From Paramacrobiotus metropolitanus (lineage: Eukaryota; Tardigrada; Eutardigrada; Parachela; Macrobiotidae), in assembly GCF_019649055.1 (NCBI RefSeq), contig NW_026570271.1:930001-994000 (forward strand): 64,000 bases of DNA. Reading direction: 5' to 3'. Below the pieces are notes generated by a model, which saw only the letters and a program-made list of their open reading frames with translations, did no database searches and was not told where the DNA came from. The position numbers and the translations under genes are program-made. This document shows, one piece after another, positions 18,374-45,585 of the stretch; the first letter of the stretch is position 1, and each line of letters begins with the position of its first letter.

Positions 18374-19317
18374 TTCAATTTGAAAGTTGTTGATGTATAT
18401 AAATTTATTAAGGACTCATTGAACATCGGCAGCAATTAGAATCTCACACGTGCTGGACCTTGTACAACTACTAGTAAGTTAAAAGTAATGCCGTTTAATT
18501 CTGACAACCGCTCGACTCGGGCTGCGGAAATGCAAGGCAAACCGGCAAATGGCTTTTTTTTATATCACCGCAGCTTTTGCTTTTCTTCGGCGTAAAAGCA
18601 ACGGGAAACGCGGACTTTGGTTAAGCCAGTCTGATCACACACCAGATATGCGGCATTGAAGTAACCCAACAAATCTTGAAATATTGTTTTCACGAGTATA
18701 AGTATTGGTGCTGATGAAAACTAGTCACTATCACCTAACCCGAAAGCTCGTAAACGGCCCCGGTCAGCACCTCCCGCTTAAGTGTCTAAATTTTCCCAGT
18801 ACAAATAGAAATAGTTTCTATATTACAAATATTTCAGTATATTACTCAGGATTCGTCTTTTGCTGTTACAGTTTTGCGAGTTGCACGGTGACCTGCCGAT
18901 CGCCAGCCAAATAATTTTTGATTTTGTTTCTCTGTGAGATTCATACCATGACCAAGCACATTTTGTGCATAAATAATGTCAAAAGACTTAAGAGTAGTGA
19001 CTACTTAAGACTGCTACATATAAAGGCATTATGCGTTCAATAAATTTAAAAAAGCAGTGAGGCATTGTTTGTTCAAATGGAAACTATACCAGTGCACATA
19101 GTGACAGTGTGGTTTCAGTTCTGGAGACATGTTGACGGTTGACAGAGTTTACTAACAGAACGATATTTTCTCAAGCCGCTCGGTACATCGACAGCAAGCT
19201 GCGGAAAGCGAGTGCACGGTGCTCTATCGAAAAACATCACTGGCAGTAATAAAAGCGCAGCGAAATCTAAGTACGTAGAAAATTTCGGCAGAAATTTGAA
19301 GATGTACAGATATGTTG
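18374..19317. other. Intergenic between copies 1 and 2
   Basis: Presumed promoter of copy 1 and 3' region of copy 2. No further gene or repeat recognised. Confidence 0.35.
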
Positions 19318-19993
19318 CTAATGGCCAGCAACACCGGTATGTTTGGCAACATACAACGGCAGGCAAGGATCATTGGGATCGGCGTTCTTCGGCGCCACCG
19401 CGTAAGACTTGAGCGGTTTATCGGCTGTTGGCTCGGGCAAACACTGATACGCGAAGTTGAAGTGCGTCGTTGGACAGCGGCTCTCTTCGTCCGGTTTGAC
19501 TGGTTTGAACGGGCAGTTTCCCTTGAATCCAGAGCACTCATGGGCCAGTCGCAGCGTAAAGGGGCATCCCTGGTAGTGGAAGCCTCCCGGGCAGGTCCGG
19601 TTAATGGTATCCGATTTGTCCATGAACGTCCAAGTACTGCCCAGGATCCACACGATCGGGGTCTCAGGATGGATGCAGTTGATGGAACCGGACGACTCAA
19701 TGATCCAAGTTGAGTTGGACAGTTCGTACGGCATAGGCTTTCCGGTTCTCTTAGAAGTCCGGTTAGTCACTTCGGGCTCGAGACTGATGTCCTGGTGGAT
19801 GGCTTTATTGGCTGTTACAGGTGTGGCATCAGTGTAACTGTAGCTGCACAGCATCATGGCGACACTCTGAAACAAAAATTAAGGAAAGTTCACGATGCAC
19901 TAACAAACGAAAACTGTTTAAAATTCTGTGAACTTGCTCGTTACTGACCAGCAGGACTGCAGACGTCGTTAAGAGAGCTTGCTTGTTTGCCAT
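19318..19993 (-). CDS. Secreted cysteine-rich family protein, copy 2
   Basis: Exons 19993-19949 (MANKQALLTTSAVLL) and 19866-19318, phase 0, with the same 15-codon first exon and gtcagt donor as copy 1. Closest relative of copy 1: ATPVTANKAIHQDI, IVWILGSTWTF, CPGGFHYQGCPFTL, AHECSGFKGNC, EESRCPTTHFNFAYQCLP, KPLKSYA, DPCLPLYVAK. Conserved cysteines are all present. Predicted secreted; function unknown. A recent tandem duplicate pair with copy 1, judging by shared splice sites and about half of residues identical by eye. Confidence 0.75.
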
Positions 19994-21027
19994 TTCTCAC
20001 GTGGAAAGGTTGCTAAACGCACTTGAATCAACAAATCAGTGCATACCACTAGCCACTAGCGCCTTAATCTTATAAGCTTTTACACAATATCAAAGGTGCC
20101 CGTTAAATTGCTGCTGCAGCTTGCAAGGCCTGTGAAATGCAAGGTAAACAGACAGGTTCTTTTTATACCGACTAATGTAGTCTGATTACTGAAAAATCTG
20201 CTTTCCTTGGCAGTGGAAACAATTTTAAAAATTGGACTTCGGCAGAATTAGACCGATCACGAGTTAGATACGTGGCCAGTAGCCATAATTTGATCCATTA
20301 ATCATGCCAAGGTTTTGGCACCCAATTAAACTTTATAACAAACCGCGGAGTCGCCGACATAGTAGTCATACTACTCGTATTTTATGCTAACCGCAACATT
20401 GTACAACTGCAAAAGAAACTGCACTGAATTACGGAATACTGTGGTATAAAACCTGCTTTTGGATGTTCACTGTTAGCGGTACCGGTAAATATGTATGGCT
20501 CGACCGTTGCGTTTTTCTTCGGTAGTGGCTTATGCGTTTATGAGATTACAAGCTTTTTCCGTTCACCCGTTCCTGAGACGGGCTTGTATGCATGTCACAG
20601 TTCTGTTCGCCTGTTTTAATTTACGAAAATCTAAGTGTGAAAACGGATCTGTTTGTTAATTTTGATTGAAAAAATTATTTTGCATTCAAATACTAATAAC
20701 CGGTGCATTAACCCAATAAGGTTGGGCAAACTGGTTACAGCATGGCTTTGTGTCAGTTAATCACCTAGGTTGGGCCAACTGGTTTGCTACGGTGTTGTGG
20801 CGTGAAAGAACTAATAAATCAAAGCCACCTGTGCAAAGCTGAATAGTATAAGTGCATACCTACAAACCTACAGTAATTGGTGAAACGGATCGAGAAGAAA
20901 TTTAGGTAATTTAGCACGAACCGCTGATGGTACCTATGGATTCTTATAAATATGGTAATGTGGATGCTTATAAAACCTTTTAGTACACTTTTGAATTTTT
21001 TCGGACCGATACAACGGTTTAACCCCC
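19994..21027. other. Intergenic upstream of copy 2
   Basis: No gene recognised. A short direct duplication (GTTGGGC(C)AACTGGTT) occurs at about 20721-20738 and 20770-20787. Confidence 0.3.
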
Positions 21028-21105
21028 GAAAACCAGCAGTTTCCTTTGAATACAGAACATTCATGGGCTACTTTCAGCATGACGGGGCATCCTTGGTACA
21101 AGTAG
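21028..21105 (-). pseudogene. Relic of a secreted cysteine-rich family gene
   Basis: A short decayed fragment that aligns at the DNA level with the cysteine core of copy 2 (its 19510-19580 region). Shared blocks include CAGTTTCC(T/C)TTGAAT, CA(T/C)TCATGGGC and GGGGCATCC(T/C)TGGTA. No surrounding exon is conserved. It shows the array was once larger. Confidence 0.6.
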
Positions 21106-21873
21106 TGATGCTCGCTTACCTACAGAAACCTTGTTTAGCGACGAAATTGTTTTCCGCCTTTATTTTTGCTACTTATATATTTTACTACTTATATATTTTT
21201 ACTACTTATAGACTACTTATATAGTATACGTTACGATATTTTAATAAATTTGCTGGACAATGTTTTTCAGTCAATTTGCTTCCCACAATAACAATGAGAT
21301 TATTGTTAGTTATAGTACGCACTCCACCCAGTTTAACTGGTCGATTTGGCTGCTCGGCGAGGGTGGAGCGGATGGGGGCGGCGTCGGCAACTCGCATGAT
21401 AATATCAGCGCTTGCAGCAGTACTCTGTACAGATCTGTATTTTCAATGGATGGTCTGTGTTCGGTTCGTTTTAGGCGACGCCTTAAGGCTTCACTTTCTA
21501 AAAAGTCTCCATTGCGTTATCTACGGATAGTCTAATCAGTACAGATGTATCAGACGGCGACATTATTAATGCATAAGGATTTGTCAAAACTTCGTTTGGG
21601 TTTGTCAAAGTTTACTTTAAACAAAGAAACATATTTCAGAAAGCAGGTACAAGCAAAAACAAAAGTAAAAAGCACAAAATGTCTTAAAAAATTTTTTTAA
21701 GGCGGAAGATATGACAGAATAGCGAAGGAACAAATACGTTTTTTTCTTTTTGTCTCAAAAGGGGTACCTATAGTTTTTACGTATAAGATGGTGTGGGCAA
21801 TAGAGAACACAAAAAGAGCATCAACAAGGGTGCAGAAGGGGATGGCTACAGATAACGGGAGTGAAAAGGGGTG

Positions 21874-22262
21874 TGTAACCGTCCAGAACCATTGGTCGTC
21901 TGAGACTTCCGCCGGCCGTTTTTGGTCTCTAAACCGTGCAAAACGACCGGCACCGCCTAAACAACTACTGTAAATTTCGCCAGCTCAGTTTTTTTGCGTA
22001 TTCGATTGTGAACAGGGAGTGTAATTTCGTATCCGGTCGTTTCTTCCCGAGAAAACTTCGTATTTCAAATATGTAGCAGAAACGATCCAAAGTTTATCCA
22101 AAATTACATTCATTCCTCTTGTTGACGATCGAAAACTCCAAGAAAAAACAGGTGCGGAAAATCTACTGCGGTCGTTTCGGCGGACCCCGGTCGTTACGGA
22201 CGGTTTTGTGGGCGAAACGACCGGCGGACGTCTCAGACGACCTGTCGTTTTGGACGGTTACA
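21874..22262. mobile_element. TIR element with ends TGTAACCGTCC
   Basis: Imperfect inverted repeats of about 50 bp: the left end TGTAACCGTCCAGAAC continues to GGTCGTCTGAGACTTCCGCC, and the right end is its approximate reverse complement (GGTCGTCTGAGACGTCCGCC). The 4 bp GGTG flank both ends (21870-21873 and 22263-22266) and could be a target duplication. 389 bp, GC-rich compared with its surroundings, no coding capacity. Superfamily not identified. Confidence 0.6.
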
Positions 22263-22813
22263 GGTGTGCCTTTAGCAGTTCCAAAATTAAGGTACTAACT
22301 GCTTGTGCAAGGGTTGCACACTTAAATATTTTAGCCCGTAATCCATTTCGATAATGCGGCAACACACAGGTGCGCGCGAAACTGTGTAATTACTGGAATC
22401 CAGCCGGTGTTACATGCGGTCTTGTTAGTTGTACTGCGGCACCTTCAACATTCCGCACACAAGCGCAACGTTTCATGAAATTATGGAATTTTTTTAGTTC
22501 ATCGTTTTGTTTTATTTTCTTTGCACTTTACAGCCCAACCATAATTTTTGTTGAGACACTTGGGTTTTTTTGAAGTTAATTTGCAGACGAACAGCAGAAA
22601 TTATTTTTTTTCGTTTCCCATGGTAATCTATCTAACAAAACAAACAACAGTGAGAATCATAATGACCCATCATGCATGGAATTTTCCGAACAAGGTATCT
22701 ACTCGCCTCTGATAAATTTTTTTCAAGTTCATCCAACGGTTGGGCACTCTTTAAAAGCCACTTATTGGATCTCGCAATAGCGCTCATTGAGCGACGCTTC
22801 GGCATACACATTC

Positions 22814-23662
22814 TCAAGCAAAAAGGGGAACGTTGAAACTTCCAGTTAAACTTGGTGACGGGCTCGGCACGTATAACAAAGCACAAGGACCACTTCCATC
22901 GCTTCCAGGTGGCAGCAGGGTATACGGTTTCAAGGGATTATCCGGTGTCAGTGGGGGCAGGCACTGGTACCGCACCTCGTAGTACGCTACCGGACACCGT
23001 GCCATTTCGTCCGGCTGCTCAATGAAAACGGTGCAGTTCACCGAGGCACCGGAGCACTGGTGCGCCAGCCGCAAGGTATACGGACACGCACGCCCATGGA
23101 AACCTCCCTCACACGTCATATTCAGCCAATGGTCGGCGGTGGTGTTAACATTCTGCTTAGATTCGGTGGTCAAATTCACGAATTGACCGCCCAGGATGCG
23201 GATCATGGGGTACTCGGGTAAAGGGCAGTCTATAGTGCTGGGGAAGCCGATAGACGTGATCATGACGGATGTCATTCCGATGGGTTGAATTTCAGGGTCG
23301 TCCGCGGTGGCATTGCGCATTTCAAACGGTAGATTTATATCTTGAACTGCTTTTCCAGTGGTACGATTAGCTGATTCGGAAAAAAGACCAGCAGCGTCGA
23401 TGTGGTGAATAACGAGCGCGGTCGAGTCGATTGCGTCGAAATTGGTGGAGTTGGATGGGCGGTCAATTTGGTCTCTAGTGGAATTTTGATCGGACACTGC
23501 GGCAGTGCCATGAAGTGTGAATACCAGGAGCAGTACGTACTGGGAATACGAAAATCGTTGGAATTATTTCAGTTATTTACCCGGTACTGTTTGCTTACTT
23601 ACCGGGATACGGATTACACGTATCAACGTTTCAGTTGCAAACCCATTTCGCTGGCCAGCCAT
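22814..23662 (-). CDS. Secreted cysteine-rich family protein, copy 3
   Basis: Exons 23662-23603 (20 codons, MAGQRNGFATETLIRVIRIP) and 23539-22814, phase 0 (gtaagt...cccag). Exon 2 opens with YVLLLVFTLHGTAA, a hydrophobic signal segment, then an extended low-complexity N-terminus rich in N, T and D (several N-x-S/T sites). The family core follows: FEMRNATADDPE, IRILGGQFVN, CEGGFHGRACPYTL, AHQCSGASVNC, EQPDEMARCPVAYYEV, RYQCLP, NPLKPYT, CALLYVPS, and a C-terminal tail of about 15 residues not shared with copies 1-2. The start in exon 1 is chosen because it gives an in-phase join. Confidence 0.7.
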
Positions 23663-24095
23663 GGTTCTGAATCCTTTCGCTACACTTATCGGTATTACGG
23701 CAGCAATGCACTATTTATTCCTTTTTGGGATGCATAAATACTAAGATGATAATTTATGTGGCTTCTTTCTATTGCATTAGACCAGGTTTTCAGTGTATTT
23801 ACGGCTTCTCGCACAACGATGATATAATATTATCGGAATGCTGGAATGTGCTTTTGCTCGAGGGACCATTGACACGAGAAGCATTACTAACGAGACCATG
23901 CTATTGCTGCCGACTGCTGTTCAAAATTATGTACAGATATTTGTACTCGTATGTGAGCTCTACAGGCCTTTCCAGGTACATCGTTTATGCATTATCGTTA
24001 GGCGTTATGAAATACTCAGAAATAGTTTAGGGCAGTGTTTATTATAAATGCGGCACTTACCACATGGACCGTCTGACCGCACAACGTACATATGT

Positions 24096-24751
24096 TTAAG
24101 GGATTTGGCCCGGGACATAGCACTGAATTCGTGTACATTGGCGGGAACTTTCGCTGTCGCGCACTCCCAAACACTTTTTTGCATTGCTTTATGAGATTTT
24201 GTAGCCAGAAGAATTGTATATGTAGTTGTGAAATCCGTTTGCGCGCGCAACATGCGGTAGCGGAGTTATGAGGGCAACAAAATTCCAAAAAGTTTAAATG
24301 CATTCAGGTGTACCAAAAGTCTCATTATGCACCGATCCCTTTCAAATTTTGCACGTAAATGCACATAACCATGAAGATTGTTTTGGTACGGATGCAGACT
24401 TCTACAATTTTTTTCGAATTTTAAAATGAATTTCAAAAATTTTAAAATTCATTTTAAAATTTAAAAAAAATCCTAGAAGTCTGGTTCCGTACCAAAACAA
24501 TCTTCATATATGCATTACGTGTTGAGGAGATCGGTCCATAATGAGACTTTTGGTACACTGAACAAAACTTTGGAATTTTGCCCTCATAATTCCGCAACCG
24601 AAGCGCGCAAACGGATTTCACAACTACGTACAATTCTTCTGGCTACAAAATCTCATAAGCAATGCAAAAAAGTATTTGGGAGTGCGCGACAGCGAAGGTT
24701 CCCGTGGATGTACACGAATTTGGTGCTATGTACCGGGCCAAATCCCTTAAT
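24096..24751. mobile_element. Foldback (long inverted repeat) element
   Basis: Two arms of about 300-350 bp are near reverse complements. The left arm begins TTAAGGGATTTGGCCCGGGA and contains CTTTCGCTGTCGCGCACTCC; the right arm ends with the inverse (GGAGTGCGCGACAGCGAAGG, CCGGGCCAAATCCCTTAA). The centre, near 24410-24480, is an AT-rich palindrome of AATTTTAAAATGAATTT type. No coding capacity. A diverged relic of one arm lies at about 27690-27930. Confidence 0.75.
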
Positions 24752-25192
24752 AAGTACTGGCGTACCTACAAAATCTACTTAGCCAACCAGTGCCATAACA
24801 TAAGTTGTCCGGTTGTAATTTTGCTGATTTATCGTCAGCGTTCGCTATAATTCCACAGCTTGATCATTAATTATAAAGTGGCTTTAGTTGCAAACATCCT
24901 GCGGTCACCGGCTGTCTCTCAAGCAGAAAAATTGCCGTGCGTCTCATTTTATTAGTAAATAGCGAACAAATGCTGACCTTGGCAGCTGCCACTGACCTTG
25001 CTGTTCCGCTGCAGCTTGACCTGAACAACGAATTCACTGTTTTGCAACCGCGAATATTCGCTAACTCTAAATATTTATTGCTTGATTTGTCTGAGTTGGT
25101 TTGAATTTCAATGAATTTTAGCTGCAATAGATGCGATGCATTATACTGTACTGTAACTTTTAAGCAGCAACACAGAAGCCACATTCTTAACA

Positions 25193-25822
25193 TCAATACA
25201 CGAGGCTACGGGCTAGCGGCGACCACCTTTGGCATACTTGCTTGCTAACGTATAAAGCTAAACAGGGATCACGCGAGTCGATATTCGGCGGAGGTATGGC
25301 GAAGGGCTTCAGCGGATTCTTCGGTAAACACTGATACCGGAAGCGGTAATGTGTCACTGGGCCACGACTTACCTCATCCGGTCTCTCCAGATCCAGTCGG
25401 CACTGGCCGCTGGCACCCGAACAATCGTGGGCGATGCGCAGTGAGTTCGGGCAGCCTGGTACATGGAATCCACCCACACAGGTTACATTTTGCATGTGGA
25501 TTCCTTGCATGCTGATAAAACCACCACTTAGAAACCAGATAATGGGGTACTCCGCATCGATACTGTCAATTGTGCCGGAAGTGCCCAGAAGCCATGTGGA
25601 CTGCGCGGTGAATCCCAGGGGAAGCGGTCGCCCGTGTTTGGATGTCCGGTTGCTCAGTTCCGGCTGCAGATCGATGTCTTTATGGAATGGACCGCCGCCG
25701 CTCAGTGTTGTCGCCGTAACGACACCATAATAAAACCAGAGAGTTGCGTTCTGTCAAATAACAGCTGAACTCACCAATAACAGATACCCTGACAGTAGCT
25801 GCTCACTACCGCGTTTTCGCAT
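25193..25822 (-). CDS. Secreted cysteine-rich family protein, copy 4
   Basis: Exons 25822-25775 (16 codons, MRKRGSEQLLSGYLLL) and 25750-25193, phase 0, with a very short intron (25774-25751, 24 bp: gtgagt...gacag), which is shorter than most spliceosomal introns and makes this junction less certain. Core: NATLWFYYGVVTATT, then FHKDIDLQPELSNRTSK, IIWFLSGGF, CVGGFHVPGCPNSLRIAH, CSGASGQC, RPDEVSRGPVTHYRFRYQ, CLPKNPLKPFA, DPCLALYVSKQ. Compared with the others, the C of the RCP motif is replaced (SRGP), so one disulfide cysteine is lost, and the segment between CLP and NPLKP is shortened. The C-terminus (about 15 residues after YVSKQ) is unique. Confidence 0.65.
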
Positions 25823-26523
25823 GATTTTACAACCGTTGCAGTGTGACAAGTTAACTGCAGTTGTTTTCGTGCAAGCTACATACAGCGCCGCTTAGTACTC
25901 GGAACGGTACGGATGCGGAATTAAACCTCTATTTACCGATTGGCATCTCTCTTATGGACTAAGCAGAATTTCCACGAGTGCATCGTTGCAGTGTGGTACC
26001 TGCGTGTAATCATGTCGAGAGAACCGCTGCTTTGATGTTACATTACTGGTTAACCACGTTAAACTCGCCGATCTTGAAAATGAAAATCTTCTGAGATCTC
26101 TTTGTTAGTGTTTACTGCTTTGGGGCATTTGTTACTGCTTCTAATAACTGCGGTGAACGACCGGCATTATTAATTAATGCTCGATCCTATTAATCTCTAA
26201 AGTGTCAAGTCAAGGCATACTGTTTTCGCAGGTCGCATCTTCCTTAACCATTTTGATTACAGCTAACATAATGTCAAAACCGATTGGTTGCTTTTTTGGC
26301 ATTTTATTTCAATAAACCTCAAGATAACTGGCTGACTGCTTAATCTGTGATGCTCATCCGTGCACACAAGTACACCGTATCTTTTCCTGTAAACAATGCC
26401 AACCGCCAAGCTTTTTTAGGCGTACATTTTAAAGCTCATTATTTTGACTTCACGCCACGTTGTGACGCGATGAATCAAGCCGTTACGTAGACGATAAAAT
26501 TATCAGCGCAACGCGAAACCGTT

Positions 26524-27189
26524 TTACTGACTCGGCACGTACAACGCAGCGCATGGATCGCTGGCGTCGACCCCCGGCGGGAGCGTGGCATACGATCTGA
26601 GCGGATCGTCCGACGTCATCTTGGGCAGGCACTGGTAGCGAATCTGGTAATGCGCAACCGGACAGCGTTGCATTTCATCCGGCTGTTCAATGGACACGGA
26701 ACAGTTCCCGGAGACACCCGAACACTGGTGCGCGATCCTCAGCGTGTAAGGACATCCGCGCACATGGTAGCCGCCCTCGCACGTCACAATCTGCGTGGCA
26801 TTAGCGGTGACATTGGCATACTGCCCGCCCAGGATGCGGAGAATGGGATACTCGGGAAAAGGACAGTCAATCGTCAACGGGGAACCAATAATCCAAGAAG
26901 ATAACCAGGGTGTTTCGATGAAACGAACGCTCCCGTCATCCGCGGTGGCGTTGCGCATTTCAAAGGCCAGATCAATATCCCGGTGCACATTCTTAGCTGC
27001 TTCCTCAGCTGGCGCGGTTATCGCGTTTGCTCCAGCCGCCGTAAGCAGCAGTACGTCAATACACTGTGGATATGCAAACCGCCGTAATAACATATTCCTT
27101 ATAATTATAATTATGTATTTGAACTGACATCGTTTTTTATCAAACCTGTGCAAAAAGTACGCATGCCAGTGCTTTCGCCGTGCATCCAT
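26524..27189 (-). CDS. Secreted cysteine-rich family protein, copy 5
   Basis: The family core is intact: KNVHRDIDLAFEMRNATADD, FIETPWLSSWIIG, ILRILGGQYANVT, CEGGYHVRGCPYTLRIAH, CSGVSGNC, EQPDEMQRCPVAHYQI, RYQCLP, DPLRSYATLPPG, DPCAALYVPSQ. It is very close to copy 6 (30068). The 5' end is ambiguous: the frame runs open from 27189, but the first exon of copy 6 (MHGESVGLRIFVQ) has a counterpart here with one extra base, which shifts phase. Alternatively translation starts at the internal M near 27093 (MLLRRFAYPQ, then CIDVLLLTAAGANA), which itself makes a good signal peptide. I give the longest span; the true start is uncertain. Confidence 0.65.
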   Translation of the reverse strand: MDARRKHWHAYFLHRFDKKRCQFKYIIIIIRNMLLRRFAYPQCIDVLLLTAAGANAITAPAEEAAKNVHRDIDLAFEMRNATADDGSVRFIETPWLSSWIIGSPLTIDCPFPEYPILRILGGQYANVTANATQIVTCEGGYHVRGCPYTLRIAHQCSGVSGNCSVSIEQPDEMQRCPVAHYQIRYQCLPKMTSDDPLRSYATLPPGVDASDPCAALYVPSQ

Positions 27190-27689
27190 AATATCGATAA
27201 AACATTTTTACCACGGTAACCTTTTCCGGTCCAGTGCAATACCAAGTTATTGTGGCTGAATTAACAAATATATTAGTCTATGCTTTATTATCTAAATTAC
27301 GTTTCTTTACTGATTGTTATATACACTCTACAGTGTTTCGCGGAATGTCTTTTGCTCGAGGAAATAATTACGCGTGAAGCTGTATGAATATTTCGTTAGT
27401 TATTGGAACCCAACCAGTATTACAAACAATTTGACAAACGTACCGGCTAGGCTGATGCCGCACCTTCTACATTTCGCAAATTGCATAGCCCCACAGCGTG
27501 AATTATGATTTGCTGATTCATGGCAGTCCTCTCGTTGCATTTTACAGTAGGAATGAATGATTTATCTTCGTGCTTGTTAATATATTTTACCCTTAGTTTG
27601 GCCTTTTATCCATGATTATACTGACACGTAGTACTTATACTGACCTTATACTGACACTTACTCGTAGTACTTAAAGTAGTGGCCTGGAT

Positions 27690-27930
27690 ACTTAATACCA
27701 AAATCCGGCACATGGATTTGAACTTTCGCTTTTGCGCACTCCAAGATACTGTTTTTATTACTGTACATTCTGCAGCCAAGTGATTTCTCTACGCTTGTGT
27801 GAAATCCGTTTGTGCGAGCAACATTTGCTTGGGAGATTATGAGTGAAACAAAATTTTAAAAATATCAAATGCATTGTGGTGTATCAGCAGTTTGATTATA
27901 CTGTAAACCGATTTGCTTCAGATTTTGCCT
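27690..27930. repeat. Diverged relic of the foldback element arm
   Basis: Shares ordered blocks with the left arm at 24096-24320: TTTTGCGCACTCC, GTGTGAAATCCGTTTG, GAGCAACAT, ATTATGAG and CAAATGCATT. Too diverged for boundaries to be set. Confidence 0.5.
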
Positions 27931-28167
27931 GTAAATACGCATCAGTATCAAGATCACTTTTACACACAACCAGATCCTGACCAGAGTCGCCCATTTTCCA
28001 AATTTTAGGAGCCACATTTAACCGCCGAAGTCTCCACACACCGCCTGTTACTACCACCAGGGATCAGGCTCCGCGCACCACTGTTCGCATCACGTTTCGT
28101 TTTGAGCCACCATTTTTGCGACAACACTATGTACAGAAAATTATCGGCAGTCTCACGACACTACTTA

Positions 28168-28636
28168 CCGTAATTATCGAATTTGTGGCTCCCCCCGCAA
28201 TAAGAGCTCCCCTGAAATAAGACCCCTCCCCGATCCCGTTTGAAAAATAATGCCACCCCCCGAAATTACGCCCCAGGGGGCCGTTATTAAATGTCAAGCG
28301 CTGCAAAATGATAGGTATACCACAAATTTCTTCCTAATAATTGTTATGATTCGATGGGTAAACAGTAAACGGACATCAACATAATGTGGTATTTGTTGGC
28401 GAACAGTTGCATATGTAGAAAACTAGGAATATACTACCGGAGTACCGGTAACTATTGCGTTCAATTCCACTAGAACAACATTCGCAGTTGTTTGAAATAT
28501 AATGCCCCTCTCCAAAATGTGCCGTTTGAAAAATAATGCCACCCCCCGAAATTGCGCCCCCTCCCCGAAATAAGCCCCCCTCCGCCATGACCTTCAAACT
28601 ATTTGCACCCCAGGGACACAAATTCGATAATTACGG
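28168..28636. mobile_element. TA-flanked MITE with C-rich interior
   Basis: 469 bp. Ends CCGTAATTATCGAATTTGTG and its inverse CACAAATTCGATAATTACGG, each with TA outside (28166-28167, 28637-28638). The interior contains a duplicated C-rich block, AAAATAATGCCACCCCCCGA, at about 28242 and 28531, and GAAATAAG(A/C)CCC(C)CTCC near each end. No transposase. TA target plus TIRs suggest Tc1/mariner-type mobilisation. Confidence 0.7.
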
Positions 28637-28639
28637 TAT

Positions 28640-30067
28640 ACTCGTGGTTTCGAGAACATACAGTGGGTGGTTATATACGACTAATATGACCTTTGTTTCT
28701 GGGCTGATAGGGGCATACGGAATTTTCCGGCAAAAGTTCCGAGGTTTAGATCTGGAGAAACTTTGCGGGAGAAATTTTGTGTGCCTACTTTAACTACGTG
28801 AACCCCTTCCTGACCACATGCTGGTATCGCGAGGTTAAAGAAGTGTGGGCATATGACAGTTCGCCGGTGGAGCTTCATTTGAAAATTAAAAAAAAACAAA
28901 TATGGCTGCTTTATGGGACGTCCATGCCGGAAAAGCGGATAACGGTTGGTTATTTAGACCAGCTGTCAAAAGCGAAGGAAACGAAATCGACTGTGCCCTC
29001 TAAGATTTCGCGTTTGCGCACGAGTTGCTCAATGGAATTGACCCTCAGAAGAATTTTCTGGAAAAACTTTGAGAGGGTGGGTCATAACATCATTGGTGAC
29101 CTTTTCCATATGTGCTGACGCTGCTGCAGGTGTATGCTTTGATGGACTTTGGAAGCTAAGCGTGTGCAAAAAGCTCTAATACCGTCCTGGCCGGGCGGCC
29201 GAGCGAGTAAAACCGAAAACTCCCTAACCATAACTGAAGCGGAGGCCCCTGAATGGTATGAAAAAAGAGGAGCCATACCGCGAGACGAAAAAGCTGTCTT
29301 TTTTCCGTCTGTAATAAGAAATAACTAATTTTTTTAAAAACAGTGATGTCCAGAGACTTGGTGATGTGCACTCTGCCATTGGTGGTGTTAGGAGATTTCG
29401 GTGGTTTTTGTAAAACATTAAAAAAATAATAAAAGTGGTGTACAGGGCTTGGTGGTGGTGAACGGTGGTTTGCGGAGACTTTGATGGTTATACGTGGTGT
29501 GCGGAGCCTTCCCATCTTAAAACTTATATGTACAGAAGTTTTCGGAATTCATGACAAAATTTGAAAAAAATGCTAAGACCTTGATTTGGTATAATGACGA
29601 TGTTTGAAACAAATGATACGGACGCTGCATTACAGATTGAAACGCATGAGACTCGACGATCTTGACAATGAAATTTTCAGTGATCTATGTCTGTGGTTGA
29701 TGCGCAAAAAATTCGATCCTCACCGTAATGGATTAATTAATCGCGCTAGGAGGTCTAACCGGTGACCTTAAACACAAACGTATCCGTGAAAGTTAATGTT
29801 TGGCATCATTCAAAGGAAAAAAGACGCTATACCTGCACACAGTGGTGAGAATCACGAATTAAGAAGTCCGTCAAACTTTTCGCGTTCAGTCAAATAAAAT
29901 GCTAAAAAGCAACCAATCATTTCTGTCGTCTGTAATGCTAATGTAATCAAAATGGCAAAAGAATGATGTAGCTGAAGTGATCGAGCAATTATCTAAGAAT
30001 GCCGGTCGTTCACTGCTGCCAAGATTGCATATTAGAAGCAATTTAAAATGCCCCAAAGGGCCATTTT
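28640..30067. other. Intergenic, no confident gene
   Basis: A 113-codon plus-strand frame at 28777-29118 and a 119-codon minus-strand frame at 29156-29515 have no recognisable domain or splice context. The plus-strand sequence 29430-29500 is GGTGGT-rich. I see nothing I would call a gene. Confidence 0.3.
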
Positions 30068-30714
30068 CTATTGACTCGGCACGTATAACTCGGCACACGG
30101 ATCATTTGGATCTGTTCCTGGCGGCAGCACTGCGTACGATCTGAGCGGATCTTCCGGTGTCATCTTGGGCAGGCACTGATATCGAACCTGGTAATGCGTT
30201 ACCGGACAACGCTGCATCTCATCCGGCTGCTCAATATCCACGGTACAGTTCCAGGAGGCGCCCGAGCATTGATGCGCGATCCTCAACGTATACGGACAGC
30301 CGCGTACATGGTAGCCGCCCTCACATGTCACATTCACCGAAGCAATGACGGTTTCATTAGTATACTGCCCGCCCAGGATACGAAGGATGGGGTACTCGGG
30401 GAAAAGGCAGCCGAAAGTGATATTTTCGCCGATAAGCCAAGAAGAAAGCCAGGGATTTTCGATGAAACGAACTGTCCCTGTCCCGTCTTCCGCGGTGGCG
30501 TTGCGCATTTCAAAGGCCAGATCTAGATCCCGGTGCACATTCTTAGCTGGCTCGAGTATTGCGTGAGTGCCAAGGATTGTAATCTGCAGGAAATTATGCA
30601 ATGTGAATATGCAGGCCATCATCCGTGTTTTTCAGGGTTTAAACGTTGTTTCGCATACATACATACCTGTACAAAAATACGCAAGCCAACGCTTTCGCCG
30701 TGCATCCATAGTTG
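30068..30714 (-). CDS. Secreted cysteine-rich family protein, copy 6
   Basis: Exon 2 runs from about 30583 (after a cctgcag acceptor) to 30068. Exon 1 reads MHGESVGLRIFVQ and ends at a gtatgt donor near 30665, joining in phase 0 to ITILGTHAILEPAKNVHRDL; an overlapping upstream ATG does not keep phase. Core: AFEMRNATAEDGTG, FIENPWLSSWLIG, ILRILGGQYTNET, CEGGYHVRGCPYTLRIAH, CSGASWNC, EQPDEMQRCPVTHYQV, RYQCLPKMTPEDPLRSYA, DPCAELYVPSQ. Nearly the same as copy 5 across the coding region and its flanks, so the two arose by a recent segmental duplication. Confidence 0.75.
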
Positions 30715-31060
30715 TGGCTGACCATGCTTATTACAATAGATTTGTTACTGTACAGCAAAATCCAGGAATTAATGTTTTGCCTCCTTACATAAGTCACGTT
30801 TGCTTAGTGTCAGTTATATACTTTTGTACGCTTTTTTGTGGAATGTCTTTACGCCCGAGGAAATAATTACGCGCGAAGCTGTCTGAATTATTAACTTAAT
30901 TATCGGAACCTTACCAGTATTACAGACAACTTAGCAAGCATACAGGCTATGCTGATGCCGCACCTTAAACATTTCACAAACTGGCGACAAAAAGTGAATT
31001 GTTGTTTTGCTGATTCATCAATATATCTTTTGCTCGCATTTTACCGTACGGTGCATTATC

Positions 31061-32114
31061 GTGTTTATTAAAATGGAAGTTCGACACTTTTGCATAATCA
31101 TATCGTACTAAGTTACTAACGTAGTTGTACGTATTGTGGACGATTTACTAATATTCGCAAGTCCCGATATTATAACTCTACGATGAACAAGTTTTTTAAA
31201 TTTACAGCTAATTAACAACGTTAATTTAAGTTAATGTTACGTCGACGGCGCTTCCCTTCTTAACGCCGCATCGGCAGAGCCGGACCACCATTCGCGCGCT
31301 TTGATGTGGACCGGCGCCGGCCGCTTTGTGTGTTGTCTCTGTTTAGCCGCTTTCCGCGCACAGTTCACACTGCACACGCTCGCTTGCCAACACGAGTTTT
31401 CATTTTGCTCGCTCGCTGGTATAGCCTTACGAGTTCTCATTTCGCACTCGTTCACTTCTCGATCAGCACGTCGAGAATTTTGTTTTCCCGCCCACCGCGC
31501 ACCTGTTTGTTTTTCGTTTCGTTATTTTGCTCCTACCGAATCAAAATAAAGGGGTTGCCTGTGCGGCTGGAGCGACCAGAGGTGGCCAACGCATTCGCAT
31601 TCACGCACCTTGCTTGCGCTTCCGATCAGCAGCATCTTCAGTTCTCCCCACTTGGCGTTGTGTGGTCGCATAGGAGACGTAGAACATTAAAATAACAATA
31701 TTAAAATTATTATGCTACTAGAAAGGAAGATTTGTTGGTTTTTAGGTGTCAAGGTAAACTCATTATGCGAGACTGCTTTTATCGTTTACTTATCGTGTAT
31801 CGATTATAATAAAGAACGTCAGGAAAATAATACCGGATTTTCAGTTACACGACAACATCCGCGTTCTAGTGTATAAGTATATACCGTGGTATGTTTTCGT
31901 TAATCAGGGCGCTTTCGACGTTAGTATTTGCATACCGAGGCTGCTAACTAAAAAATGATCAAAGCGCCTTGAAGGTCAGGCAAAAGCAAATAAGCATCAA
32001 ACTGTCGGATTATGTACGAGTATTTACATGCGCTGTTCCAGTATCGCACATATTGATTACAGTGTGCCAATATTTTTGACCCGATAATATGGAGAAACCG
32101 GGTTGAGTATTACG
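31061..32114. other. Intergenic with a GC-rich island (31240-31690)
   Basis: A compositionally distinct GC-rich stretch with repeated CTCGCTCGC-like motifs. A 129-codon plus-strand frame (31306-31695) looks compositional rather than genic. The motif CAGAGGTGGCCAAC at about 31579 resembles a hAT terminus, but I found no matching opposite end. Confidence 0.3.
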
Positions 32115-32815
32115 CTAGGCATACTTTCGGCTGTAATACTGATAACAGCGATCGTCCCGGTTCTTTGGAGCCTTCGCGTACGGCTTCAGGGGATGTTCAG
32201 CCGGCAAGCACTGGTATCCTATGCTATAATGCGTCGCTCCGCAGTCGTCGGCTTCATCCGGGGTTTTAATGTGCACACTGCAGGATTCCGTCGCGCCCGA
32301 GCATAAATGTGCCGTCATGAGGGTGAACGGGCAACCCCGGACACTGCGAGCCACTTCACAACGGACCGCATCATCCTCGTTGACCGACATATGCTGGTAA
32401 CTGCCCTCCAAAACCCAGATTTTTGGGTGGTCTTCCGATGGGCAGGACAGCAAGCACAAGGATTTGATGCGGCAGGTGCGGTGCTGAATGGAGCCGAGGG
32501 TGTGGTTCTCCGCGTCCCATTCGGGAAACAGTTGTACATCCCCTTGTTTAAGGGTGGCAGGGCCGCTGAGCTGGTCCGGATCGGAAATGCGGAATGTGCT
32601 GTCAGAATTGGCGAGTCGGAAAGAGCTTTTCTCCGTGGTGGCAGTGTATGTCGCTCGGCGGGCGGCGGTCAAGTGGATCGCCTGTTAAAAGCAGTGCCAG
32701 TTAGTTAATGTTTTCGACTTTAGGTTGTTTTGAAACAAATAATATTGTTACTGGTTTACTGTCATTTAGGAAGTGCCTGTGCGCTTACTAGACAAATAAT
32801 AAAGGAGAGAAACAT
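32115..32815 (-). CDS. Secreted cysteine-rich family protein, copy 7 (divergent)
   Basis: Exons 32815-32789 (nine codons, MFLSFIICL) and 32681-32115, phase 0 (gtaagc...taacag). The join makes a textbook signal peptide, MFLSFIICLAIHLTAARRA. It is the most divergent member: C-x-x-K-S-L-C-L-L-SC, PKIWVLEGSYQHM, CEVARSVRGCPFTL in place of CEGG..GCPYTL, AHLCSGATESC, KTPDEADDCGATHYSI, GYQCLPAEHPLKPYAKAP, then a basic C-terminus, RCYQYYSRKYA, in place of DPC..LYV. The conserved CSGA, PDE, THY and YQCLP landmarks make membership certain. Confidence 0.75.
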
Positions 32816-34232: not shown

Positions 34233-34931
34233 TTAGGCGGCGCATTGATACCATCCATTTCTGTAGGTACAAAAGCTGGGACTCGGGAAGGTCCGTCCCG
34301 TTATGCCGCACAGAGTAGGATATCGGGCGCACAGACCCACAAAACGTTTTCCACGACCTCCCTGACGTGTGCATAAGCGGGGAAGCCAAGTGCAGATATT
34401 AGGTAATGGCCCGGAAGGGATGACCATCCTCTTGTGGCGACCGGTGAGAGAGCACAGATTAGGATAAGCCAGACAAAAGTGATCTGCCGGTCCCAGTATC
34501 AGGTCACGTTTGCGACGTCCATTGCAGTTGTAAATGCGTCGACGGGACGCATCCCAGCAGAGATAATGCTTCGCTCTTGGAGGAAAATGGTCCGGCATCG
34601 CTATATAGCGGTTTGCTGGGTGTCGAAGGCTGGGAGTTTTGAACTGCATCTCCAGATTGAAGCCTGTTCCAAACTGTTCGAGGAATTCCCGACATTTGTC
34701 CTGGAACGCATTGTGTGTCGGCTGCACCTCGGTCCAGTTGATATTCTTCACGCTGGCCTTTCCCAGGAACGCTTGCAGACAACTGGCATAGTCAGGATCG
34801 GAAAGGAATATAGCGTCAGCTTTAGCAGCGAAGTCCACAAGCGATGGTGAGAAATCAGAATTATTAGAATCCGCACTGCAGCGAAGGACAATGCCCCCAA
34901 GCAGAAACAGTAATTCAGATACAGTTTGCAT
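34233..34931 (-). CDS. Candidate prohormone with three C-x-x-[FYL]-P-x-L-C peptides, copy A
   Basis: Single-exon frame. I choose M at 34931 (MQTVSELLFLLGGIVLRCSA) rather than the in-frame M at 34958 because the paralogue at 36604-37485 begins with the same MQxV pattern followed directly by a signal peptide. The N-terminal half carries CLQAFLG, NWTE, and KCREFLEQFGTGFNLEMQ shared with the paralogue, then YLCWDASRRRIYNCNGRRKR. The C-terminal third is a series of basic-site-delimited segments: RRKR ... FCLAYPNLC; RHKR ... ICTWLPRLC; RGKR ... LCARYPTLCG, and a terminal FCTYRNGWYQC. Precursors built this way are usually cut by furin/prohormone convertases into small disulfide-ringed peptides. Known peptide families with this motif do not come to mind; the hormone role is inference. 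Confidence 0.65.
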   Translation of the reverse strand: MQTVSELLFLLGGIVLRCSADSNNSDFSPSLVDFAAKADAIFLSDPDYASCLQAFLGKASVKNINWTEVQPTHNAFQDKCREFLEQFGTGFNLEMQFKTPSLRHPANRYIAMPDHFPPRAKHYLCWDASRRRIYNCNGRRKRDLILGPADHFCLAYPNLCSLTGRHKRMVIPSGPLPNICTWLPRLCTRQGGRGKRFVGLCARYPTLCGITGRTFPSPSFCTYRNGWYQCAA

Positions 34932-35147
34932 GGTATAGCAGTTTTGGTTTGAAGGCAAAAGCTTAGCAGTTGACGGTTAGGCAAAACTTTAGTTATAAAA
35001 AACAAGGCAACAATACGTAGCTGCCGTACGTGTATTCTCTTAAGCGTTAAAAGTGGAAAGATTTGGATCATGGACAGGCAGAAACGTCGAATAGCGAAGT
35101 ATTCTCATGCACCGGCTTATATTCTCTTACGAAGTTTACCTGAGGAA

Positions 35148-35228
35148 AAATCGTCCCGTTTGATCGAACACCAACGTAAGTTGAACAGGATGCCCGAGCG
35201 TCGTGAGATCAATCTATGGCATCGGCCT
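35148..35228 (-). promoter_or_regulatory. Conserved upstream block shared by the prohormone-like paralogues (copy A side)
   Basis: About 80 bp upstream of the gene at 34233-34931. It matches 38501-38573 upstream of its paralogue: AAATCGTCCCG, TGATCGAACA, AACAGGATGC, and then AATCAATCTATGGCATCGG with few mismatches, while the surrounding DNA is not alignable by eye. This could be a retained promoter element or a leftover of the duplication. Confidence 0.4.
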
Positions 35229-36603
35229 GCAGATCATTAAGTGGACTTCAAAATGCCTGCCGACGACATTTATGGCACATGATTATAGAATCTAGATACT
35301 GGATTTGAGAAAACGTTTATTTAGATGGATAATGGTGGGCTATAGATATCAAACGTTGCTGTTTACTTTTACCTAGTTTCAACTGAAAGAAATCAGCCGT
35401 CCAGAACTACGCTGATCGACAACTTTTCGCACGACGGTAAGCATTTTACGCGGTTTGTGTGTCTGATGCACATAATATTTGAAAATAAGTGATAAACCAA
35501 CGATAACAGCACACGCTGCCGCCAATAGTTTTGCTGACCTCGTTTTATGGGAACTATCGTCACATAATGATGCTAAACTGCATCATGTGCACGCGCAACG
35601 GCAGTCCTCCCAATGAGAGATAACCCTTATTATTTGTTTTCGTAAACGCTGAGCACAGATGACCTTTGTTATGTCTTGATCTTTAACCTTTATTGGAATT
35701 TTGGCGAATATTAGAACTTATTTCTACATTCATATTTCTACATAATTTTACATATTTGTACATACACTTTCCCAATTTTCATGTAACAATTTTTTGCGCA
35801 TCCTGCGGATACATTTCCTGAAGTACAGAATAGTTAAAGCTGTGTTTTGCTCGTCACACCTTTTACTACAAGCGCAGAGACGCTACACTTGTAAGGCTGT
35901 CACATCTGGAAATTTTTTGTTGATTTTAACATCAATTTTACATTTTCGCAACATTCGCGGTTTCTGTGGTTGTTCGAAGGTTTAAAATTGAGAACACGTT
36001 TCGTTGGCTTCCGTGAATGAAATTACGTCAACTGGTGCTCATGTTTTATGGTATAAAGCCTTAGTTATGGCTATGATGTTACGAACTATCAGTATATGAC
36101 AGCTCATAATTATAGTTTCTTTATCATGTATGCGTTTCCATGATATCTAACCAGCTATGTCCTGGTAATAAAATTAAGAATTGAAATGTTTTGTAATTAC
36201 CAGGGAGTGCCCTAGAGACACATATTGACAGCCGCTAAAACAATATTTAGGCGCACATTACTGAAGATAACGCAATAAACTGAAACTTGAATAACAGAGA
36301 ATAGTTTGTTAGAATTAATGCACATCCAAAATGGTCACACCAATTACGTATTACAAGCATAAAGGTTATGTATAACCATGAAAAGAGTTATTACAGCAAT
36401 GCAACCGGTACACTCACAAACAACGAAAAGCATGCAAATGATTGTGTATAGTCGAAAAGGCCATTAGAGTAGCAATCCTAATAAAAACATGCTATAATCA
36501 GAAAAATTTACACAATGAAAAAAATTGGCTGAAAAGCGACAATTAGAGTAGTATAAGTAAGCGATCTATGACATGTACCGTGACCCCCGCGTGTCTGCGG
36601 TAT
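35229..36603. other. Intergenic between the two prohormone-like genes
   Basis: AT-rich; no gene, TIR element or tandem repeat recognised. Confidence 0.4.
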
Positions 36604-37485
36604 TTAGGCGCACTGGTAGTGCACAAACTGGTGTCCGTTCCAGTAGGAACACCATTGGTTCTTTGGCTCCCTCCAGCGCCGATACTCATCGACGGCGATG
36701 CCTCCCACCGTACTCCCGACAACGCTTCCCCCAAACCCGCACAGGGTTGGAAACCTCGCGCAAAAGCTGACAACCGGGCCTGCAAACCGTTTTCCGCGGC
36801 TGCCCGGATGTGGAAAACTTCCTCCTCTTCCACATAAGATGGGGAATACGTAGCAAACACCCAATCCTGTTGTCACCCACCGTTTTTGGCGAGCGCCGGT
36901 ATTTCCGCTTGTGAGGGCGCACAGACGAGGAAAGGCCTGACAAAAGCGATATACCGGCCCCGGAATTACTACTTGGCGCTTGCGACGTCCATTGCAGTTA
37001 TAATAGCGTCGACGTGTCGCATCCCAGCAGAGATACTGTGGGGGTGCAGGAGCATATGCTGTCTGACCACCGAAGACCAGTTCAGCAGCAAGGGAACCCA
37101 GAACAATCGGAACCAACGGCAGACTGCGTTTTGTTCGGCGCAGGAGGCTGGTGTTGTAGGCCATGAGCTGAATCTCTAGATTGAAGCCGGTTTCAAACTG
37201 CTTGAGGAATTCACGGCATTTGCCTTCCTGTGCGTCGGCCAGTCGGTGAATGAGCGTCTGGTATGCACTGTATGTCCGCATCGGCTCGGTCCAGTTGGTA
37301 TGCTCTGCAGTAATGTTCGCCACGAGTCCGTTCAGACAGTCAGCAGAGGCGGGATCGGAAGCGAGTGAGGCCTCGGCTTCAGCAAAAATGTCCAGAAGGG
37401 TGGACGGGAAATCGGGATTGTCAGGATCTCCATTGCAGCTCAGGATGCCCGTACAAAGCAAGATCAAATAATGTACGATCTGCAT
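36604..37485 (-). CDS. Candidate prohormone with three C-x-x-[FYL]-P-x-L-C peptides, copy B
   Basis: Single-exon frame of 293 codons with signal peptide MQIVHYLILLCTGILSCNG. Shared with copy A: CLNGLVANI, NWTEPM, KCREFLKQFETGFNLEIQ, YLCWDATRRRYYNCNGRRKR. An extra hydrophobic, glycine-containing stretch (LPLVPIVLGSLAAELVFGG) follows an RRTKR site and is absent from copy A. Segments bounded by basic sites: RRKR-QVVIPGPVYRFCQAFPRLC; RQKR-WVTTGLGVCYVFPILCG; RGKR-FAGPVVSFCARFPTLCG, then a glycine/valine-rich segment and a C-terminal WCSYWNGHQFVHYQC. The third peptide is the most similar between copies (CARFPTLCG against CARYPTLCG). Predicted secreted; role as a peptide precursor is inferred from architecture only. 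Confidence 0.65.
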   Translation of the reverse strand: MQIVHYLILLCTGILSCNGDPDNPDFPSTLLDIFAEAEASLASDPASADCLNGLVANITAEHTNWTEPMRTYSAYQTLIHRLADAQEGKCREFLKQFETGFNLEIQLMAYNTSLLRRTKRSLPLVPIVLGSLAAELVFGGQTAYAPAPPQYLCWDATRRRYYNCNGRRKRQVVIPGPVYRFCQAFPRLCALTSGNTGARQKRWVTTGLGVCYVFPILCGRGGSFPHPGSRGKRFAGPVVSFCARFPTLCGFGGSVVGSTVGGIAVDEYRRWREPKNQWCSYWNGHQFVHYQCA

Positions 37486-37606
37486 GGTAATAAATTCTCT
37501 CTGAAGGCAAGCACCAAGCGTTTAAAGAAAGGTCAGTCTTCAAAATGGATACGCACCCGCACGTAACGCGATTAATGTTAAGTGCAAACAATTAGTTACT
37601 TTGTAT

Positions 37607-38436
37607 TAGAGCCCTGCACGAGCAGCAAAAGTGCTGCTCGGCTCACTCGTTTAAGCATTTTGAAACTTGCTGCTCGCTCAGCTCGCTCGCGTCCAAACCG
37701 CCGCTCGCTCGGCTCGCTCGTTTTAAGATTTTTCTTTGCTTCCGCTCGCCCTACTCGCTCGTAATTTTAATTTTGCAAATCGGCTCGCTCGTGAGATCGG
37801 CAAAAATTTTAGGTATCAATTTGTTGCACGAATCATATTAATATAAAAATTTTTACACTCACAAAAACGCAGTAAGTAAAATACGGTGTCCAGAGACGAC
37901 CACTTATACAGTCCCTCCATACGAGACTTATACCTCGTACAGGTAGTCCATTTCTTAACAATTTCATTTTTTCGCTAATACCTTTCAGTAATTTGTAACT
38001 GGATGTGGTTCTCTTGATTTAGTTTGAAATAATTAGAATAGAATGTTTGAAATTTGAAATGTACCTTGTTTTTTTATAAATCAGGCAATTGATTACTTAC
38101 GTGATTACGTCCCGAGTTCCAACAGGTGAAAGAAAACTTTAGCTTTTAATTTTTTTATGTTTCGCGCGAAAGCGCGAAGGTGACGGTGGTTTAAGACCGT
38201 TTTCTAGTCGGTCAATGTAATTCTGTACAGGAAACTTCTCCAGTTCGCACAATGTCAGGACGTAGGCTCGCGATCGCTCGCACCAAATCATCCCGCTCGC
38301 TCGGCTCGCTCGCAATTTTTTTTCTGTTGCTCAGCTCGTTCGAAAATTTGCAAAACGACGCCTGCTCGCTCGAAGTGCTCGCGAGCTGCGAGCGCTCGTG
38401 AGCCGAGCCGAGCGGCTCGGCTCGTGCAGGGCTCTA
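37607..38436. mobile_element. Non-autonomous hAT-type element with 8-bp TSD
   Basis: 830 bp with terminal inverted repeats TAGAGCCCTGCACGAGC and its exact inverse GCTCGTGCAGGGCTCTA, flanked by a perfect 8-bp direct repeat CTTTGTAT (37599-37606 and 38437-38444). An 8-bp duplication plus this end type is diagnostic of the hAT superfamily. Both subterminal regions (37620-37800, 38270-38420) are packed with CGGCTCGCTCG-like units, which could be transposase-binding repeats. No transposase frame. It lies upstream of prohormone-like copy B. Confidence 0.9.
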
Positions 38437-44153: not shown

Positions 44154-45585
44154 ATGACTGACGGAGAATGGCGCTCACAAGTCAACAGAAAGTTGCAAAC
44201 TATCATAACTGATCCTAACGAATATGCGGAAGTTGCTAGTTTTCTGGCAGCCGAGGAGGACAGAATGCATGGGTATAAGAATTCCGGAAAGTGGAATATG
44301 CTACATGATGTCGTGGGTTCGGATGAGGTAGGTTACCGTTTGGACAGAGTACGTACCCTAAAAAAAGCTGTCAGTGAAGTAAATTTTTGCGTAATTTCAT
44401 TTATTTTATTATTTTATCTGAGTTTGTTTATTTGTCTTATGAATTTCCTTCGGATTTTTTTTTTCACACTAAACATCGAGACAAAAATTAATGCAATATT
44501 TTGGTACAATGTACCATGCAGGTTAATCACTTACTCGTACATGCGGTCTCTACGTTATCTGTGTTTGATCATTCACAATTTATACAGCGTTGCCTTCATT
44601 CGGCGGGCTACATGAATAATCATGTCTTGCGCCTTCCGTATTTAAAAGTTCAATACATGAAAAACATAGTTACTTATCGACCGAAATTTCCATATGCGGA
44701 TTTAAAAAAACAGTTAAAACCGACGCACGGCTAGTGTTTCAGTCACCTATTCTGTATAAACAGAGATTCCGCGCCTGTGTGAAACGTATTAAACGCGACA
44801 TTGGGAGCTTCAACTCCAAAGGCGCCAGGAACAGCTCGGTGCCGGATATTGACCACTCTTTACCAACACCGGAGTGCACAACTGGATATTCTCACTGGGG
44901 AGCACCAGACACAAAAGACCTGGCTCTGTGCGGTGCCATGGGATGCGCCAGTGGCTTAGCGGCCTATCCGGCCGCCCAAGCCGGCATTCTACAGGTGGCT
45001 GAACACCTGGTTATCCCGGCGCTAATGCCCGCCCTCCACCGGGCGGCGACCGTGGTGCGGGCCGTGGGTCGGATGGCGCCAGTGGCGCTGGCGGCTGTGG
45101 CGCTCTCGCTGGAGGCGATGCAAAATATTACGCGCTGGTGGAAAGGTGAGATCAGCGGCCAACGCGTGGCAAAAAACCTGATTGATTGCAGTGTAACGCT
45201 GGTCGCGGGAGGCAGTGCAGGCTTGGCTGGAGCTGCTATTGGCGGATTCTTGGGCCCTCTGGGAGCGGTGGTTGGCGGGGTTATCGGTGGACTGTTGGTG
45301 GGGGGCGTAACGTCCTCTTTGACGGATTGGCTGACGGAGAAGTTGTTCGATATCCCTCGGGATGAAGCGCTGGAGAAGGCGTACACTTTCTTTGGCTGCA
45401 GCATGCGTTCATCTAATGAACGTATCAATGCCAGATATCATGCTGCCTGCAAAGCGTACCATCCGGATAAGGGGGGATCCCATGATATGTTCCTCAAGGT
45501 GCAGGCGTGCATGGCTATTATCAAAGTCGCCAGAGGGGAGCAGTATGGAATGGTGGACCAAGTACGATATCTAGCTGAGAGCTAA
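44154..45585 (+). CDS. Glycine-zipper membrane-type protein with C-terminal J domain
   Basis: Two exons, 44154-44327 (58 codons) and 44743-45585 (280 codons plus stop), phase 0 (gtaggt...gtttcag); 338 aa. Residues 1-58 are the module shared with the genes at 39918 and 41031 (EWRSQVNRKLQTIITDPNEY, GYKNSGKWNMLHDVVGSDE). Residues 59-120 are basic then neutral. The middle has A/G-rich hydrophobic helices (PVALAAVALSLEAM), WWKGEISG, and a glycine zipper (GSAGLAGAAIGGFLGPLGAV, VGGVIGGLLVGGV) that should insert in or span a membrane. The C-terminus is J-like: LFDIPRDEALEKAYTFFG, YHAACKAYHPDKGGSHDMFL, with the HPD tripeptide needed to stimulate Hsp70 ATPase. Function and partner are unknown; a membrane-tethered co-chaperone is the simplest reading. 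Confidence 0.75.

Follow-up and report, generated by a model that had tools for sequence, protein, structure and literature searches.

Predicted multi-peptide precursors with a C-x-x-[FYL]-P-x-L-C ring in the tardigrade Paramacrobiotus metropolitanus

Predicted precursor genes A and B and a third paralogue

In the genome of the tardigrade Paramacrobiotus metropolitanus, two neighbouring genes on contig NW_026570271.1 (assembly GCF_019649055.1), here called A and B, encode predicted precursors in which short two-cysteine motifs of the form C-x-x-[FYL]-P-x-L-C (hereafter rings) alternate with basic R-x-K-R sites. Both genes lie on the minus strand of a stretch of 64,000 nucleotides (positions 930,001 to 994,000 of the contig), which we call the window and to which all coordinates refer unless another contig is named. 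A sequence-only reading of this DNA had proposed that A and B are paralogous, secreted-looking precursors, and this is supported. Their reading frames are intact at the positions listed below, each with a hydrophobic start (judged by eye). The ring coordinates likewise confirm three rings in each protein, with an R-x-K-R site ahead of 6/6 rings. The disulfide rings had been described as having six residues, but they span eight, of which six lie between the cysteines (C-x6-C).

Two further modules accompany the rings in both proteins and had gone unmentioned: a CWD..RRR.YNC module before ring 1, and a final two-cysteine module that ends in YQCA. Residues 151-171 of B, around the former module, are identical to A at 18 of 21 positions, and an extra R-x-K-R site of B stands ahead of it. 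The features of the two genes are as follows.

34233..34931, minus strand: gene A, 232-residue precursor, one-exon open reading frame, intact
34872..34931, minus strand: A, signal-peptide-like start, about residues 1-20 (from sequence; end set by eye)
34641..34871, minus strand: A, shared N-terminal domain with 2 cysteines and sequon NWT
34524..34559, minus strand: A, CW...NC module (C125-C136)
34506..34517, minus strand: A, RRKR site (residue 139)
34452..34475, minus strand: A, ring 1, CLAYPNLC (C153-C160)
34428..34439, minus strand: A, RHKR site (residue 165)
34371..34394, minus strand: A, ring 2, CTWLPRLC (C180-C187)
34344..34355, minus strand: A, RGKR site (residue 193)
34308..34331, minus strand: A, ring 3, CARYPTLC (C201-C208)
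34242..34271, minus strand: A, C-terminal two-cysteine module (C221-C230)
36604..37485, minus strand: gene B, 293-residue precursor, one-exon open reading frame, intact
37429..37485, minus strand: B, signal-peptide-like start, about residues 1-19 (from sequence; end set by eye)
37156..37428, minus strand: B, shared N-terminal domain with 2 cysteines and sequons NIT and NWT
37126..37137, minus strand: B, RTKR site (residue 117), no counterpart in A or C
36994..37029, minus strand: B, CW...NC module (C153-C164)
36976..36987, minus strand: B, RRKR site (residue 167)
36919..36942, minus strand: B, ring 1, CQAFPRLC (C182-C189)
36880..36891, minus strand: B, RQKR site (residue 199)
36832..36855, minus strand: B, ring 2, CYVFPILC (C211-C218)
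36787..36798, minus strand: B, RGKR site (residue 230)
36739..36762, minus strand: B, ring 3, CARFPTLC (C242-C249)
36610..36651, minus strand: B, C-terminal two-cysteine module (C279-C292)

A third paralogue, gene C, lies on another contig (C92:88950-89384 plus stop) and encodes 145 residues with two ring motifs and one R-x-K-R. It retains the signal-like start, which is thus found by eye in all three precursors, as well as the N-terminal domain, ring 1 (FCTAFPSLC), one RGKR and ring 3 (LCLRYPTLC). Gene C was located through its N-terminal domain (E-value 4.9e-26) and not through its rings, it had no part in the definition of the motif, and it can be taken as a partly independent test of ring and basic-site conservation.

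Genome searches covered the organism's own assembly (169.8 Mb, 533 contigs) and scored the best candidates only, exon by exon, so that three genes are a lower bound. Protein searches of this assembly yielded no family members beyond A, B and C except two weak places, both rejected as paralogues: C102 (E-value 0.043), which has stops inside, and C458 (E-value 2.6). Within about 10 kb on either side of C, no frame of at least 110 residues resembled A, B or the array of cysteine-rich genes described below (by eye).

The number of motifs in the three proteins far exceeds that in shuffled versions of the same residues. The ring motif was loosened a little for this comparison, its fourth place being [FYWLIM]. 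Over 20,000 shuffles per protein it averaged 0.00115 copies in A, 0.00055 in B and 0.0001 in C, with a maximum of 1, against 3, 3 and 2 observed. For R-x-[KR]-R, the observed counts of 3, 4 and 1 compare with shuffle means of 0.20, 0.19 and 0.09. As a bare DNA pattern the ring is near background and not distinctive in the genome, with 314 matches (144+170) against 213 (108+105) for the backward control.

Conservation and predicted processing

A, B and C are three intact frames with 48-54% identity. The ratio of non-synonymous to synonymous substitution rates (dN/dS) was estimated by the Nei-Gojobori method on aligned codons (227 for A-B, 128 for A-C and 145 for B-C), with 95% limits from bootstrapping. 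It was 0.44 (0.29-0.64) for A-B, 0.27 (0.13-0.50) for A-C and 0.24 (0.12-0.39) for B-C. These ratios are below 1, and A, B and C are therefore best regarded as genes that code for protein and evolve under purifying selection. As regional point estimates, the A-B ratio was 0.23 in the rings (24 codons), 0.25 in the peptide stretch and 0.50 in the N-terminal domain (77 codons).

At the protein level, A and B are identical at 18/26 ring positions, 11/12 basic-site positions and 9/29 spacer positions (here and below, the columns of rings 1 and 3 are extended by one flanking residue). Their N-terminal domain, rightly described earlier as common to both, matches at 37/77. Rings and sites set against the rest gave a permutation p of 0.00045, a value to be read with the fact that the rings were chosen because they are common to A and B. 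Gene C compares with A at 14/18 ring, 4/4 basic-site, 3/9 spacer and 27/67 N-terminal positions, and with B at 14/18, 4/4, 4/13 and 43/78, respectively. The conservation of rings and basic sites but not spacers thus holds in the A-B comparison and also with the third paralogue, and it appears from these alignments that the processing-relevant parts are those conserved at the protein level while the spacers drift.

Of the six inner residues of a ring, more are identical between rings that occupy equivalent positions in different genes (3.7 on average, 7 pairs) than between rings within one gene (2.6, 7 pairs) or in the remaining pairs (2.4, 14 pairs); Pro and Leu, which the motif itself prescribes, account for two of the six. 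Ring 1 follows the pattern x-A-[FY]-P-x-L and ring 3 the pattern x-R-[FY]-P-T-L, and within one precursor the rings differ. The order and identity of the rings seem older than the duplications, which suggests, from few pairs, distinct products rather than dose.

The three genes hold 8 R-x-K-R sites, which stand directly ahead of 7/8 rings, the exception being ring 1 of C. The free place of these sites (P3) is R, H or G in A, T, R, Q or G in B, and G in C. The differing preferences of furin-type and bare KR cleavage are well established, and R-x-K-R with a free P3 is more in keeping with cleavage of the furin type than with cleavage at KR alone. Cutting at R-x-K-R gives 11 fragments (B 5, A 4 and C 2), and the number of cysteines is even in 11/11, so that each fragment can close its own disulfides. 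With random cuts, even counts have a chance of 0.22 in B, 0.30 in A and 0.57 in C, or about 0.04 jointly. The genome contains convertase P-domains, with 8 matches at 7 places, one of them with an internal stop. By reading of the sequence, once the basic residues are trimmed away, a Gly could remain at the C-terminus at 5/8 sites (three RGKR, and two RRKR preceded by Gly), and an amidation Gly is possible for 3/8 ring peptides (ring 2 of A, ring 2 of B and ring 1 of C), each before RGKR.

Taken together, A, B and C probably constitute a family of secreted, furin-processed multi-peptide precursors of cyclic peptides, with a receptor-ligand role slightly favoured. At least three secreted polyproteins would be directed into the secretory path by their signal-like start, and the N-terminal domain with its one conserved cysteine pair would act as a pro-domain. 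A furin-type convertase would then cleave after the conserved R-x-K-R sites. In A and B these cuts would release three peptides, roughly 24 to 60 residues long, that each contain a putative disulfide ring of the form C-x-x-[FYL]-P-x-L-C, and in B the CW...NC piece would be released as well. In C, R-x-K-R would free the last ring only, and a small first-ring peptide would require a KR cut. The released peptides may function extracellularly.

Several observations count against this interpretation. Gene C has no CW...NC module, no ring 2 and no tail, and its ring 1 is preceded by KR only, without R-x-K-R. The peptide-region dN/dS of A-C and B-C is not computable, as synonymous differences are near saturation (proportion of synonymous differences 0.78-0.97), and the samples of conserved positions are small. 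Neither AATAAA nor ATTAAA occurs within 500 bases downstream of A, B and C, nor TATAWA within 500 bases upstream.

Known peptide systems and possible roles

The statement that no described family has this ring agrees with our searches, since none that is credible was found in Pfam, NCBIfam, PDB, viral or prokaryote collections. The Pfam-A scan gave no family above cut-off (GemA for A, at E-value 0.34, was below it), and the best NCBIfam E-value, 0.047, was far below cut-off. In the PDB, B alone matched three engineered human immunodeficiency virus gp41 chains (E-values 0.0013-0.0033, each summed over two repeats within one chain). We regard these as chance matches because single stretches have E-values of at least 2.7 and the three-gene profile drops the chains to 0.09-0.11. 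Other PDB profile matches were too weak to retain (C5a 0.069-0.29, YcaC-like 0.098-0.10 and KKT4 0.55), as were two further single-query matches (1.2 and 1.4). Of 54 pattern stretches in viral contigs and 41 in prokaryote genomes, 0 were confirmed; both searches were seeded from two N-terminal-domain stretches, and proteins with rings only would escape them. A search of 5.39 million papers for the ring strings of A and B, six in all, found none of them. Among the papers listed for furin, ring neuropeptides, defence peptides and tardigrade neuropeptides, titles and abstract openings name no such family, although the Koziol 2018 survey of tardigrade neuropeptides may mention it.

By analogy of layout, which includes a truncated sister gene, Baramicin A of Drosophila appears to be the closest system found. 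The parts of its description considered here present a furin-cut defence polyprotein with tandem peptides and truncated paralogues expressed in the nervous system (PMC8423362, PMC9246212). It resembles our genes in its secreted precursor, in tandem related peptides between furin sites and in paralogues that differ by truncation. Its sites are R-x-R-R, in contrast to R-x-K-R in A, B and C, and those parts of the description mention no cysteine ring of this type. The multi-peptide prohormone layout proposed by the sequence-only reading is well supported as a precursor of cyclic peptides by the anatomy and by paralogue C. A prohormone in the neural sense is less certain, as all 8 sites found are furin-type, the rings of one precursor differ and the design of Baramicin is similar.

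It is accordingly quite conceivable, if somewhat short of an even chance, that the same processing yields host-defence peptides, several different ones being cut by furin from one polyprotein with a truncated paralogue, as in Baramicin. The furin-type sites and the different peptides within one precursor are consistent with such a role, as is the location of A and B side by side, next to a cysteine-rich gene array at 17.7-32.7 kb. That array is, however, unmatched on the contig of C at an E-value of 0.01 or better. Cleavage at R-x-K-R would free 7 fragments that contain a ring; 6 of them carry a net charge of +1 to +3, whereas the first peptide of A carries -1, and with a grand average of hydropathy from -0.11 to 1.11 the 7 are not uniformly hydrophobic. 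The A-B rings also look more constrained than the pro-domain, which speaks against defence, and no kappaB-like site occurs within 1 kb upstream in 3/3 genes, a weak argument since the tardigrade immune pathway differs.

A hormone-like, receptor-ligand role is slightly more likely than defence on these sequences; we lean to it because rings and cleavage sites are conserved and each ring position retains its own sequence across genes. Hormone and defence are nevertheless two near-equal roles between which sequence alone does not decide. More specifically, and only tentatively, the genes could represent a lineage-specific tardigrade cyclic signalling family whose precursors carry up to three different ring peptides in a set order. 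Gene duplication would have left each ring under constraint from a separate receptor or target, and C-x-x-[FYL]-P-x-L-C would be a new hormone core.

We consider it unlikely that the protein stays whole or that its chains stay joined. It would then be a structural, matrix or inhibitor protein, with the rings as small structural modules and the basic runs as linkers. The two further cysteine-pair modules, the long tails and the lack of one R-x-K-R in C would suit such a protein, and cleavage is here a prediction; yet R-x-K-R is retained at the shared sites despite spacer drift, and the cysteines pair up within fragments.

The rings also share traits with known two-cysteine neuropeptides. The CCHamide ring has the form C-x6-C with an aromatic residue at ring place 4, allatostatin C has the ring CYFN[PA]xSC with its second cysteine at or next to the C-terminus, and CCAP (PFCNAFTGC, core FCNAFTGC, amidated) has five residues between its cysteines. 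CCHamide, unnamed in the sequence-only reading, is the nearest ring by spacing and aromatic residue. The FC-x-A-F start of CCAP recurs in ring 1 of B and of C, but 0/8 rings have five inner residues and all have six. CCAP is reported from tardigrades in the part of the source considered (PMC6660194). The lobster allatostatin C, pQIRYHQCYFNPISCF, with the ring CYFNPISC (PMC4696782, in part), likewise shows C-x6-C and a Pro at ring place 5; its FN core is present in 0/8 of our rings, whose tails extend past the second cysteine. Of the earlier comparison with CCAP- or allatostatin-C-like rings of different sequence, the spacing of allatostatin C and the difference in sequence hold, while the ring size of CCAP does not fit. 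The exact allatostatin C and CCAP cores had 0 matches each in the genome (controls 0), which introns or altered residues may explain; true orthologues are thus not pinpointed here, leaving room for a diverged one.

According to the sections considered of a published account, CCHamide/EP precursors usually hold a single peptide that adjoins the signal peptide. An aromatic residue lies between its two cysteines, GG or GA follows the second of them, and its end is amidated; the tardigrade Milnesium is an exception, without the amidation glycine and with some residues after the signal peptide (PMC6617912). Those sections describe no precursor with several copies. Neither the placement next to the signal peptide, nor the GG or GA, nor the amidated end applies to A, B and C, which have 2-3 rings per precursor, a Pro and long tails, and their first rings lie about 84-162 residues past the signal-like start. 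Hence, despite the C-x6-C spacing of allatostatin C and CCHamide, the Pro of the former and the aromatic residue of the latter, it is very improbable that A, B and C are derived members of CCHamide/EP, allatostatin C or CCAP.

As multi-peptide precursors of cyclic peptides, A, B and C would form a new precursor family of a known processing kind. Homology surveys miss such peptide families because few residues per peptide are conserved. As ligands, the peptides would represent a tardigrade cyclic peptide system that uses no known core. A role in defence would make them candidate effectors in tardigrades, for which the part of a paper considered here suggests a different Toll signalling axis and names novel antimicrobial peptides as an open question (PMC7056985). 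In either case, the eight predicted ring peptides are open to direct synthesis and testing.

Flanking DNA and other features of the window

Upstream of B lies one box that is common to C (18/20 bases) and not clearly to A.

37525..37545, minus strand: upstream box of B

In B it occupies the interval 40-60 bases ahead of the start and in C that of 30-50 bases, and 0/60 mononucleotide shuffles were equally good. The best agreements of A with the box of B and C were 14 and 15 of 20, which 12 and 5 of 60 shuffles equalled. Since the box pattern was derived from the B and C sites, it necessarily matches the genome exactly at these two. One more place, which differs from the pattern by two mismatches, was rejected, as its neighbouring frames are coiled-coil-like by eye and unlike a secreted peptide. 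With 4 matches for the backward control and 3 for the box itself, the box is no genome-wide signal. Further upstream of B, a GCTCGCTCG-rich repeat was seen by eye at 37620-37800 and 38280-38400.

The GC content of the window is 38-47% (per 2-kb block). Seven cysteine-rich paralogues form a tandem array at 17710-32684 on the minus strand, with the pattern C..GG[FY]H..GCP.TLR.AH.CSGA..C...PDE..RCP..HY..RYQCLP, and an extra copy of the array gene lies at G000:C132:129048. The array has no Pfam match above cut-off and no PDB match. Its resemblance to rhamnose-binding (SUEL) lectins is by eye only and finds no support in PDB and Pfam searches. Elsewhere in the window we observed a 7tm_7 chemosensory receptor-like gene in one open frame (13402-14484, minus), a reverse transcriptase frame (RVT_1; 11079-12533, minus) that by eye is like a long interspersed nuclear element, and a frame whose match to DnaJ is weak and does not reach the cut-off (44620-45582, plus), to which the frame at 15603-16085 (minus) is similar by eye. 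Finally, a long frame with short Gln-Arg-rich repeats at 63294-63833 (minus) is probably a tandem DNA repeat, as judged by eye.

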